Below, in pieces: positions 20,636 through 43,034 of a stretch of 64,000 nucleotides of DNA; the first letter of the stretch is position 1; each line of letters opens with the position of its first letter. The position numbers were made by a program, and so were the translations under genes. The DNA is from Thozetella sp. PMI_491. Lineage: Eukaryota; Ascomycota; Sordariomycetes; Chaetosphaeriales; Chaetosphaeriaceae. The stretch lies in the NCBI GenBank assembly GCA_021432635.1, contig MU270029.1, positions 804,575-868,574 of the forward strand. The letters run 5' to 3'. The notes beneath the pieces are model-generated. The model was given only the letters and a program-made list of their open reading frames with translations. It made no database searches and was not told the origin of the DNA.

Positions 20636-21505
20636 TTAGGCTGAACTCGTAAGCTCAAAGTCAGTGCTTTCCGCAACAGACTTCAGCTTTTGCGCCGTTT
20701 GCTCCAGTGCTTTCGCTTTCATCCCCATCATACCCACGCAATCGGACCCGAGAGGGATCCGCAACTCTTCCTCCAATCCCTTAGCCAGACCAACGCCCAT
20801 GACTAGATCGTGAATGCACTCCGCAGCCTTCTGCGGGTCTCCAGGTTGGTTTCCATGAACGCCGGATAGAACGGTCTGAACGTCCATGTAATTGCCATTG
20901 TGTGCTGCCACATTCTTGCCTTTCGAGAGTTGTACGAGGAAGTTGGTCCGAAAGAATCCTGGCTCGACGAGATGCACACGAATGTCAAAGCGCTTGACCT
21001 CGAGTGCGAGACCCTCTGTCAGCCCCTCCACCGCGAACTTGCTCGCTAGATACACAGGTGACCCCTCTATCGCAAAGAAACCGCCGACACTCGACATTTG
21101 TATGATAGTTCCCGAGCCCTGCTTTCGCATGTGCGGCAGCGCTGCCTTGGTTACGTTGATGAGGCCAAAGACGTTGACATCGAATTGGTAACGGATCTCG
21201 GCCTCCGTGAGGTCTTCTACGGCTCCCATGAGACCGTATCCAGCATTGTTGACCAAGACATCGATGCGCCCGTGCTTTAATACTGCGGCATCCAAGATGG
21301 CTGTGGCGGCGGAGGAAGGTCCGGCAATCTCTAGTTCCACGAGATCGGCGTTTGGGTTCTCTTTTAGGGACTGGGGGAATTTAGACAAGCTGCGAGCCGT
21401 GGCAACTACCGTATGTCCATGGAAGAGTGCGTGTTTGACTATGCATAATCCAAGTCCGGAGTTCGCCCCTGTGACGAACCAGACCAATTTCTTGTTGGAG
21501 GTCAT
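20636..21505 (-). CDS. Short-chain dehydrogenase/reductase
   Basis: Classical SDR of 289 residues from ATG 21505 (MTSNKKLVWFVTG), intronless. The Rossmann cofactor loop TGANSGLG is at about residues 13-20, NNAG at about 88-91, the catalytic Ser in QMSSVGG and the catalytic YxxxK as YLASK. The TxxxGxG loop is followed by Arg in TARSLSK, which is compatible with NADP(H) use. No signal peptide is present. The substrate cannot be told; it is not an obvious L-rhamnose 1-dehydrogenase. It is divergent from the Zn2Cys6 regulator at 21978, with 472 bases between the starts, which suggests shared control. It sits at the edge of the glycosidase cluster and may process a released product, an inference from position only. 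Confidence 0.88.
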   Translation of the reverse strand: MTSNKKLVWFVTGANSGLGLCIVKHALFHGHTVVATARSLSKFPQSLKENPNADLVELEIAGPSSAATAILDAAVLKHGRIDVLVNNAGYGLMGAVEDLTEAEIRYQFDVNVFGLINVTKAALPHMRKQGSGTIIQMSSVGGFFAIEGSPVYLASKFAVEGLTEGLALEVKRFDIRVHLVEPGFFRTNFLVQLSKGKNVAAHNGNYMDVQTVLSGVHGNQPGDPQKAAECIHDLVMGVGLAKGLEEELRIPLGSDCVGMMGMKAKALEQTAQKLKSVAESTDFELTSSA

Positions 21506-21977
21506 GGTTGGAAAAGCCGAAAATTGGATTACGGAGATAGAAACTGTCGATCCTAGCTCTTGCAATATAAGGGAATCATAAATCGTAGCAGTTCCTCATT
21601 CTCGTGTATATTCATTTCTAAGATACTTATACTAAAAACAGTAGCCATGATTCCCAGTAGCTTGAGAAGCGTCTTTACTGGTGAAGTTTTTGATTGTCCG
21701 CAAGAGTGCGGGATTCCCGGTGGTGAGCGGACCAGCCGTCGCGTGAGGCCCATAGCATGTAAGATATGTGGAGATAACGGGTTTCTGTGCCCGAGACCGT
21801 CGCAGACCATCTTATTCCGAAGCAAAACTCCGAGCTATAGTCCCGAGAGCCCCGGTTTCTCGCGGGATTGCTCTAGATGCTGAGGATTTCCCGCAAATTC
21901 GCGGCCCCTCGGTCAGGTATGCCTCTCGATATGATTCTGAGGTACATTCGATATCCTAACCGACCGGCTCTACTAGG
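21506..21977. promoter_or_regulatory. Divergent promoter with two inverted CGG motifs
   Basis: Region between the SDR and the Zn2Cys6 regulator. It holds CGG-N5-CCG at 21728-21738 and CGG-N10-CCG at 21778-21793, both inverted CGG pairs of the kind bound by Zn2Cys6 dimers. Such motifs also arise by chance, so autoregulation by the adjacent factor is only a hypothesis. Confidence 0.35.
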
Positions 21978-40748: not shown

Positions 40749-43034
40749 ATGGCTCGCTGGTATCAAACATGGGTTGTCCTGCCCCTGTTGGCGTTTGCCA
40801 CCCCCGGGACAAGTGCTTTACAGAATGCCCAGAAGGCCAACCTTGTGGTTATCATGAGTGATGATCAGGATGCCCGCCTCGGGTCTCTGGAGGCACAACC
40901 TTATGTCAAAAACACCCTCATGGCGGAGGGTTTGTCGCTCACAAACCACTTCGCAACGGTTGCACAGTGCTGCCCTAGTCGAACATCATATTTCCGCGGC
41001 CAGGCAGCACATAACACCAATCTAACTCATGTGGTCGCCCCGGGGTAAGTAGGAAGCAGCTGCTATCCGTAATGCGATCATGGTGTCAGTTTGCTAATAC
41101 GGAGAAAAGCGGTGGGTGGGAGAAGTTTGTTCAATCTGGTATCGAGAGCAACTACTTGCCACACTGGCTCAAAGCGGCTGGCTATAGAACAGAATGTATG
41201 ATCCTTTGCTTTCTTGGGAGAGATTGGGACTAGACACGCAGAAAAATAAAAAGTTGCTGATTTACTCCTCAGACATGGGAAAGATCATGAATGGATACAA
41301 TCTAGCAACTTACAACAGTCCCAAACCAAGCGGCTGGGATTACGCCGATTTACTTGTACGTCCCCTTGCATTACGCATGAAAGATTACAAGTTGAACTTG
41401 ACACGCTACTAATACTTTCAAAATATTTTTTTTTAGCTCAATCCTTACACATATGAAGGGAACAATGTGGTGATGTCACAGAATGGCGAGCGACCGATAT
41501 TCTACAATGGATATCATCAATCGGATGTCCTGAGAGCGAAAGCGTAATTTATACCCCTTGGTCTTTATACAGAGAGCTCCAATACTGATAGTGGCAATGC
41601 ATGCCAGTCTCTCTAGGCTATCGGAATTGGCCCAGGCTGATCAACCATTCTACCTCCAGATAGCGCCGACCGCACCTCATGCTGGTAGGGACGGACCGCC
41701 AGTGCCTTGTGCTCGCCATATGTGGTCCTTTAATGATGCCAAGGCACCACGAATTCCTAATTTCAACCCCCCGGATGAGATACAGCTCCAAAAGCCCCAT
41801 TGGCTCAAGGAGCTCCCTTTGCTCAACGCCTCTCAGGTTGACTTTGTTGATTGGTCTTACCGCAGCCGTCTCCAGGCTCTTCGTGGTGTGGATGAGATTG
41901 TGGAGGATGTCGTCGAGTATCTCCGCTCCGTTGACAAATTGCAGAATACATATGGTGAGTAGTTGGGCTAAAAGCTGCAAAAGATAGGGGCTCACAAGTA
42001 TAGTGATCTATACTACCGATAATGGCTTCCATGCGGGTAACCATCGACAGATAGGGGGCAAAGGGCTACCATACGCAGAAGATACCAATATCCCGATGAT
42101 CATTCGAGGACCAGGTGTTCCTGCTGGAGCCAAGTCCAGTGTTCCGAGTACGCATGTCGACATGGCACCGACATACCTCGAGATTGCCGGTCTCGACAAA
42201 ACTTCAGCATCGTATCCGCCTTTCTTGGACGGCCGAAGCCTGCTCCAAGAATGGACCTCCTCATGTGGGAGTGACAAGAACACAAAGAACAAAGAAATTT
42301 TGAATGTTGAGTTCTGGGGCACTATCAGCAATGGAGGAGGGCCTGACTTTGAGATTACATCGCCCGTTTATGCTTATAAGACGTTGAGAATTGTCAGCGA
42401 AAAGTCGGCCTGGCTATTCTCCCGCTGGTGTAGCGGAAATGCGACAGAGCTTTACAACACCATCGTATGCTGCCCGCCCCTTCCTATGATAAAGAACAAA
42501 CATCTCACTTTTGATATTTAGGACGATCCGTACGAAATTACAAACCTTGCGATAAACCCGACCGTGGAGAACCAACGACTCATTAGTCGATTGAATGGGT
42601 TGCTGCTGGTCACGAAATCTTGTAATCAGGAGTCCTGCCGAAATCCCTGGCAGGTACTCCAGAAAGACGCAAATGCAGAATTTGCCAATCTTGAGGATGC
42701 CATGGATGCGAAATACGACCACTTCTTCGAGTCTCTGCCCTCCGTAGGGTTTCAGGCCTGCATGATGTACCAATCCACCGCAAACGAAGGACCGTACTAT
42801 CCTCCCGAGTCTATCGCCCTTGGGGCCCAGTATCGCAACAAGACGGACAATTATGTGAGTCATAATGCAAACTTCACGATCACGCCTGGGAACACCGGTC
42901 GGATGGGCACAGCAGCTCAGAGGCATGTCACCCTCGACACTATCATGAAATCAGCTAGGAATTTGACGGATGCTGAAATTGGCACTCCCGTCAATTGCCT
43001 GCCACCCAACTACTGCCCCTCTAAAGGAGATTAG
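40749..43034 (+). CDS. Secreted type I sulfatase
   Basis: Formylglycine-dependent sulfatase of 630 residues, predicted to hydrolyse sulfate esters outside the cell. Seven exons, 40749-41044, 41110-41195, 41273-41355, 41437-41543, 41608-41954, 42004-42464 and 42522-43034, join in matching phases. A signal peptide (MARWYQTWVVLPLLAFATPG) begins at ATG 40749; an in-frame ATG at 40659 would bury it behind 30 hydrophilic residues. Metal-binding SDDQD and the signature CCPSRTSYFRGQ are present, with the second Cys of the pair the one expected to become formylglycine. MGKIMNGYN and YTTDNGFHAGNH are further active-site blocks. Its overall pattern recalls fungal arylsulfatases and N-acetylglucosamine-6-sulfatases. 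Substrate is open: sulfated glycan or aryl sulfate. Its place next to GH79 and GH78 suggests action on the same acidic substrate, an inference. Confidence 0.9.

Follow-up and report, generated by a model that had tools for sequence, protein, structure and literature searches.

A run of eight genes in the genome of Thozetella sp. PMI_491 is, on balance, best read as a regulated catabolic gene cluster for plant rhamnosyl-glucuronides, which may be arabinogalactan caps or plant glycosides. Such a system belongs to an already known kind, the fungal catabolic gene cluster. The genes lie at positions 20636..43034 of the window, the 64,000-nucleotide stretch of DNA that was analysed (C15:804575-868574, in a genome of 72.3 Mb and 157 contigs). 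The core of the proposed cluster consists of a Zn2Cys6-type regulator, two GH78 enzymes (GH78a and GH78b), an MFS sugar porter, and a GH79 enzyme. A cytochrome P450 and a short-chain dehydrogenase/reductase (SDR) are uncertain members. The eighth gene, a type I sulfatase, is probably a neighbour and no functional member. Arabinogalactan side chains and, to our knowledge, plant saponins and flavonoids carry rhamnose-capped glucuronate ends, and few enzymes removing them are known. A fungal cluster would reveal which porter and which regulator accompany such enzymes.

All eight genes could be modelled with GT-AG introns and without internal stops, and the families were typed by Pfam. The models bear out a first-pass annotation of the same DNA, which had named eight genes of these families with no unrelated core gene among them. 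All eight genes are intact:

20636..21505, minus strand: SDR; 289 amino acids, intronless; PF00106, 1.6e-46
21978..24105, plus strand: Zn2Cys6-type regulator, head-to-head with the SDR; 650 amino acids, 4 exons; PF04082, 3.4e-17
24442..26980, minus strand: GH78a, secreted-type six-hairpin alpha-L-rhamnosidase-like protein with an inserted beta domain; 825 amino acids, 2 exons
28475..30394, plus strand: cytochrome P450; 500 amino acids, 7 exons, exon 1 placed by eye; PF00067, 1.8e-61
30729..33431, minus strand: GH78b, RhaE-type alpha-L-rhamnosidase with no visible leader; 883 amino acids, 2 exons
34039..35882, plus strand: sugar-porter MFS transporter; 546 amino acids, 4 exons; PF00083, 9.9e-69
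36660..38406, minus strand: GH79 beta-glucuronidase-type enzyme, secreted type; 492 amino acids, 6 exons; PF16862, 1.8e-17
40749..43034, plus strand: type I sulfatase (arylsulfatase-like), secreted type; 627 amino acids, 7 exons; PF00884, 2.7e-46

The strands alternate (-,+,-,+,-,+,-,+), and the genes therefore form four head-to-head pairs: SDR/regulator, GH78a/P450, GH78b/MFS, and GH79/sulfatase. Three of the proteins start with a hydrophobic leader, as judged by eye. Public proteins of Thozetella sp. PMI_491 (P0001, P0121, and P0241) are identical or near-identical to window proteins, and the GH79 model matches P0001 letter for letter. The regulator was typed as Zn2Cys6 by its cysteine motif, CX2CX6CX5CX2CX8C; PF00172 itself was not reported in the Pfam search. 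The P450 carries the motifs AGSETT and FSLGPRDCIG. Stops in its 5' part had raised the suspicion of a degenerate gene, which was ruled out as introns explain them.

The GH79 and GH78a have the folds and the catalytic residues of their families. The C-terminal domain of the GH79 (PF16862) scores 64.5 bits against a cut-off of 27, and E163 and E292, which we take to be the acid/base and the nucleophile, are invariant in 39/39 aligned rows. Its nearest solved structure is the Fusarium gum-arabic enzyme FoBGlcA (7dfq), with 34% identity over 450 aligned residues. In GH78a, Pfam detected PF17390 (4.1e-18) and, weakly, PF17389 (1.9e-6; 27.8 bits vs a cut-off of 24.5). Its family assignment is borne out by a predicted structure (pLDDT 84.9), for which the top three Foldseek matches are all fungal rhamnosidase entries (E 9.3e-29 to 7.1e-28), the best being A. 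niger Rha-2 and AoRhaA. D347, D352, D359, and E647 (P0241 numbering) are invariant in 38/38 aligned rows. GH78b carries PF17389 (5.9e-111) and four more GH78-type domains, together with the motifs DCPQRDER...D and WERWD; its structure matches are 6gsz (an A. terreus rhamnosidase, the best; E 9e-235) and 3w5m (E 4.3e-158). It has the GH78 domain set and the four acidic residues of RhaE/RhaB, as listed in the accessible part of PMC3312857, with the spacing compared by eye.

Evidence for a link between these enzymes comes from the rest of the genome, where GH79 and GH78 genes lie near each other more often than expected by chance. Family and protein searches, with matches up to 3 kb apart merged, gave 30 GH78-like, 11 GH79, and 45 sulfatase loci. 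With the window loci excluded and uniform placement over 72.3 Mb assumed, a GH78-like locus lay no more than 25 kb from 3/10 GH79 loci (0.20 expected, P 8.6e-4, the best of four distances). These statistics ignore hot spots of carbohydrate-active enzyme (CAZyme) genes, a point against the cluster reading. The other distances gave 1/10 at 5 kb (P 0.045), 2/10 at 15 kb (P 0.0064), and 3/10 at 50 kb (P 0.0057).

Further evidence came from the surroundings of GH79 genes outside the window, which were read on contigs C1, C66, and C2 (two more public GH79 proteins of this organism, P0022 and P0082, lie on contigs that correspond to C1 and C66). The most telling second locus is on C1 (2957106-2973300; L031, L032). 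There, ~16 kb holds a PF04082 gene, an NMT1/THI5-like gene, a GST-like gene, a GH79, a GH78, a second PF04082 gene, and a sugar porter. The GH79 stands head-to-head with the GH78, which has no visible leader. On C66, a GH79 of the FoBGlcA clade is followed by other reading frames and then by a GH78, a GH3, and a porter; over its C-terminal part, this porter is 38% identical to the one in the window.

The linkage appears to extend to some other species. Searches covered the GH79 (best 120 of 189 homologues, 119 with a contig), GH78a (120 of 326), and the sulfatase (120 of 593), each row standing for one 90% cluster, and linkage was judged from the contigs and locus tags of the homologues. The listed GH79 and GH78a rows have at least six contigs in common, including the window's own. 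In Xylaria grammica, the two relatives are tagged g10750 and g10754 (EKO27) on a 22,836-base contig. The three gene numbers between them equal the number of genes between GH78a and GH79 in the window. In 'Lasiodiplodia mahajangana', the relatives have the adjacent tags g3210 and g3211 (O1611) on a 17,466-base contig; the species name is doubtful because its GH79 groups among Xylaria proteins in the tree. Fusarium sp. LHS14.1 (523 kb) and Paramyrothecium foliicola (5.4 Mb) each have both relatives on a shared contig. Taken as a whole, the GH78-GH79 link looks real.

How might the cluster work? The first-pass annotation had proposed a chain from secreted hydrolases through an importer to a cytosolic GH78. 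As a model the chain holds, with the sulfatase dropped, and the C1 locus likewise combines a GH79, a porter, and a leaderless GH78. We infer the substrate, the order of steps, uptake, a cytosolic GH78b, co-regulation, and any roles of the P450 and SDR. The secreted GH79 would cut the beta-glucuronide bond and free a small rhamnose-bearing sugar; alternatively, the secreted GH78a would first take off rhamnose. The sugar porter would import the product, the leaderless GH78b would split what remains rhamnosylated, and the Zn2Cys6 protein would turn the set on. To call GH78b cytosolic is to say that no leader is visible; the A. nidulans enzyme of this type, RhaE, is likewise predicted to be leaderless, yet it was purified from the medium (PMC3312857, accessible part).

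The closest precedent for the first step is Fusarium oxysporum 12S, in which FoBGlcA (GH79) frees rhamnose-glucuronate (Rha-GlcA) from gum arabic and FoRham1, a PL42 lyase, then splits it (PMC8377490, accessible part). The window shares with this pair the GH79 fold and catalytic residues, the secreted type, and the rhamnose-glucuronate theme; the term 'gene cluster' does not occur in the text of PMC8377490. In the window, a GH78 may replace the PL42 lyase in splitting Rha-GlcA. The PF15892 profile, under which PL42 presumably (and perhaps wrongly) falls, had no match in the genome, which permits no conclusion on a PL42-like gene. Other known systems offer parts of the route. In A. nidulans, the induction of RhaA and RhaE is tied to rhamnose uptake, according to the accessible part of PMC3312857. 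The window likewise has one leaderless RhaE-type GH78 and one GH78 closest to the shorter fungal type, although here both are clustered with a GH79, a porter, and a regulator. Streptomyces avermitilis SaRha78A (GH78) frees rhamnose from gum arabic, and the fungal GH79 enzymes AnGlcAase and NcGlcAase release glucuronate from arabinogalactan-protein (PMC4052742, accessible part). The families and the sugars released are the same as in the window, whereas those are single enzymes. Hydrolases, a porter, and a Zn2Cys6 regulator adjoin in fungal catabolic clusters generally, but this gene set was not found among described ones in the titles and abstract starts searched. Those titles and abstract starts, from a search that most subscription papers lay outside, described no fungal GH78-GH79 cluster.

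A more specific version of this reading is tentative and rather unlikely in its full form. It could be called 'swallow first, split later': a secreted GH79 of a little-known clade would free a rhamnose-capped sugar in intact form, a dedicated porter would import it, and a leaderless GH78, not a PL42 lyase, would split it inside the cell. This module would have been assembled or kept several times, in the window, on C1, more loosely on C66, and perhaps in Xylaria.

A number of observations, given in this and the next two paragraphs, weigh against a cluster for plant rhamnosyl-glucuronides. The rhamnose-cutting enzymes are GH78 here and PL42 in Fusarium. In addition, the window GH79, at 34% identity, belongs to a separate clade. 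It fell outside the FoBGlcA-like clade (SH-aLRT 100) in a quick tree of 103 rows, in which P0079 served as proxy for FoBGlcA (P0079 vs 7dfq, E 1.6e-287). The loop past the nucleophile is different as well (GETGFHGLETTQ vs GETNSATQGGGG). The window clade makes up 50/103 tree rows, and the cluster would provide it with partner GH78s for testing. T. pinophilus P0025, which may be the glycyrrhizin enzyme TpGUS79A, belongs to this clade; its sole PDB match is 7dfq. No galactanase or arabinofuranosidase is present among the eight genes, and this lack of an arabinogalactan-backbone enzyme favours the main rival, in which the substrates are plant specialised-metabolite glycosides such as triterpenoid saponins and flavonoid rhamnosides or glucuronides. 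GH78a, GH78b, and the GH79 would strip the sugars, the MFS protein would move sugars or aglycone, and the P450 and SDR would oxidise the aglycone for detoxification or food. It is the only reading with a role for the P450 and SDR, which have none in cap removal. The best structure matches of the two GH78 enzymes are also consistent with it. Cleavage of glycyrrhizin has been reported for GH79 members (PMC13299809, accessible part), and flavonoids, terpenoids, and saponins are substrates of microbial rhamnosidases (PMC13298368, accessible part). However, the substrate of the GH79 with the nearest solved structure is a polysaccharide cap, and tblastn over 40 kb of C1 found no P450 match and a lone SDR match (28% identity), which lay 18 kb away from the GH79. 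Moreover, P450 and SDR are very large families, and chance neighbours are likely. The glycoside reading is considered clearly the less probable of the two.

The linkage is not strict. Outside the window, GH78-GH79 spacing is 14 kb on C66 and 20 kb on C2, with other reading frames between. In Fusarium solani-melongenae, from another GH79 subclade, the two genes are unlinked at ~530 tags apart. The first-pass annotation had asked for a comparison of gene order across relatives. Among the seven other rows of the window GH79 subclade, two, both Xylaria-like genomes, are tag-linked to a GH78a and one shares a contig only. For the other four (Ilyonectria robusta, Xylariales sp. No.14919, Xylaria arbuscula, and Xylariomycetidae sp. 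FL2044), no GH78a is listed on the GH79 contig, which, among the listed 90%-cluster rows, counts against strict conservation. The closest relatives among the matches listed also vary by gene, with Ilyonectria at 82% for the GH79 and Neurospora at 72% and Fusarium decemcellulare at 66% for GH78a and the sulfatase. The four contigs without a listed GH78a and the differing best relatives fit a reading in which the genes are chance neighbours in a CAZyme-rich accessory stretch, with joint function limited to the GH78-GH79 pair. The numbers of GH78-like, GH79, and sulfatase loci in the genome also fit, as does base composition: six cluster exons have a GC content at third codon positions of 0.53-0.62, and two exons of the adjoining patatin-NACHT stretch have values of 0.49 and 0.56, whereas eight flanking open reading frames reach 0.66-0.93. 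Core-type genes (Nop52, a diacylglycerol-kinase-type gene, and a NatA subunit) lie in the left flank past that stretch. Against chance stand the recurrence of the linkage and the matching gene count in Xylaria grammica, and this explanation is considered improbable.

Direct support for co-regulation was sought in the regions between the paired genes:

21506..21977: SDR/regulator shared intergenic region, 472 bases
26981..28474: GH78a/P450 shared intergenic region, 1494 bases
33432..34038: GH78b/MFS shared intergenic region, 607 bases
38407..40748: GH79/sulfatase intergenic region, 2342 bases

The motif CGGN6CGG occurs in 4/4 of these regions and in 50/5000 shuffles, but it is the best of 48 forms and fails correction. 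No 8-mer is common to all four regions.

Does the sulfatase take part? The first-pass annotation had included it and had suggested ulvan, seagrass, or other sulfated glycans as substrate. If the full eight-gene set acted on sulfated rhamnose/uronate glycans or on sulfated plant glycosides, the sulfatase would be expected to be intact, as it is. PF00884 scores 158.7 bits, the CXPSR motif is present as CCPSR at residue 74, and the gene stands head-to-head with the GH79. GH78 and sulfatase loci outside the window also show borderline proximity: 1, 1, 3, and 5 of 28 at 5, 15, 25, and 50 kb (P 0.18, 0.42, 0.055, and 0.024; 0.87 expected at 25 kb and 1.68 at 50 kb). However, GH79-sulfatase proximity is at chance, with 0, 0, 1, and 1 of 10 at the same distances (0.31 expected at 25 kb, P 0.27), and the 119 GH79 and 120 sulfatase listed rows have no common contig besides the window's own. 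The listed GH78a and sulfatase rows have one further common contig, of 6.5 Mb, from an Apiospora. A 2.3 kb gap separates the sulfatase from the GH79, and no polysaccharide lyase is present among the eight genes. The genus Thozetella, placed in Chaetosphaeriales, is terrestrial and not known from marine habitats, and we take 'PMI' to denote a poplar root collection. Because sulfatases show no linkage to GH79 beyond this locus, membership of the sulfatase is unlikely, and so is the ulvan or seagrass reading, which has no other support; a sulfated substrate for the full set is considered very improbable. A pair on C137 (3190-11232; L047, L048), in which a sulfatase lies 1.5 kb from a RhaE-type GH78 with an MFS match nearby, may be a better candidate for a sulfated substrate than the window genes. 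The 45 sulfatase and 30 GH78-like loci seem many for a fungus, and about three sulfatase genes are crowded at C58:117859-124033.

Two other accounts of the origin of the segment were rejected. The low GC content is no sign of foreign DNA, as stretches of C1, C2, and C137 in the same genome are alike (GC 0.48-0.54). Block transfer from Ilyonectria, suggested by the 82% identity of the GH79 to that of Ilyonectria robusta, was dropped because neither GH78a nor the sulfatase has its best relative there. An inverted, hairpin-like repeat lies between the regulator and GH78a (24290-24400), where 89 bases equal their own reverse complement at 90%; it occurs at a single site in the genome and was rejected as a repeated element. 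A partial by-eye model of an HsbA-like gene near 43.4-44 kb had no Pfam match and was not confirmed.

The left border of the low-GC stretch is formed at 15931-20021, minus strand, by a patatin, a NACHT-type (NPHP3_N) domain, and ankyrin repeats, which make up a fungal NLR-like gene or two adjoining genes; 110 bases of N lie within the ankyrin part. The right flank contains a zinc-type dehydrogenase, a GH76 (mannan-type) gene at 48993-49682 on the minus strand, and a purine-type permease. Elsewhere in the genome, a 10 kb stretch of C66 (240001-250000; L034) has a GC content of just 0.286, vs 0.42-0.56 in the other 18 stretches, and is possibly mutated repeat DNA.

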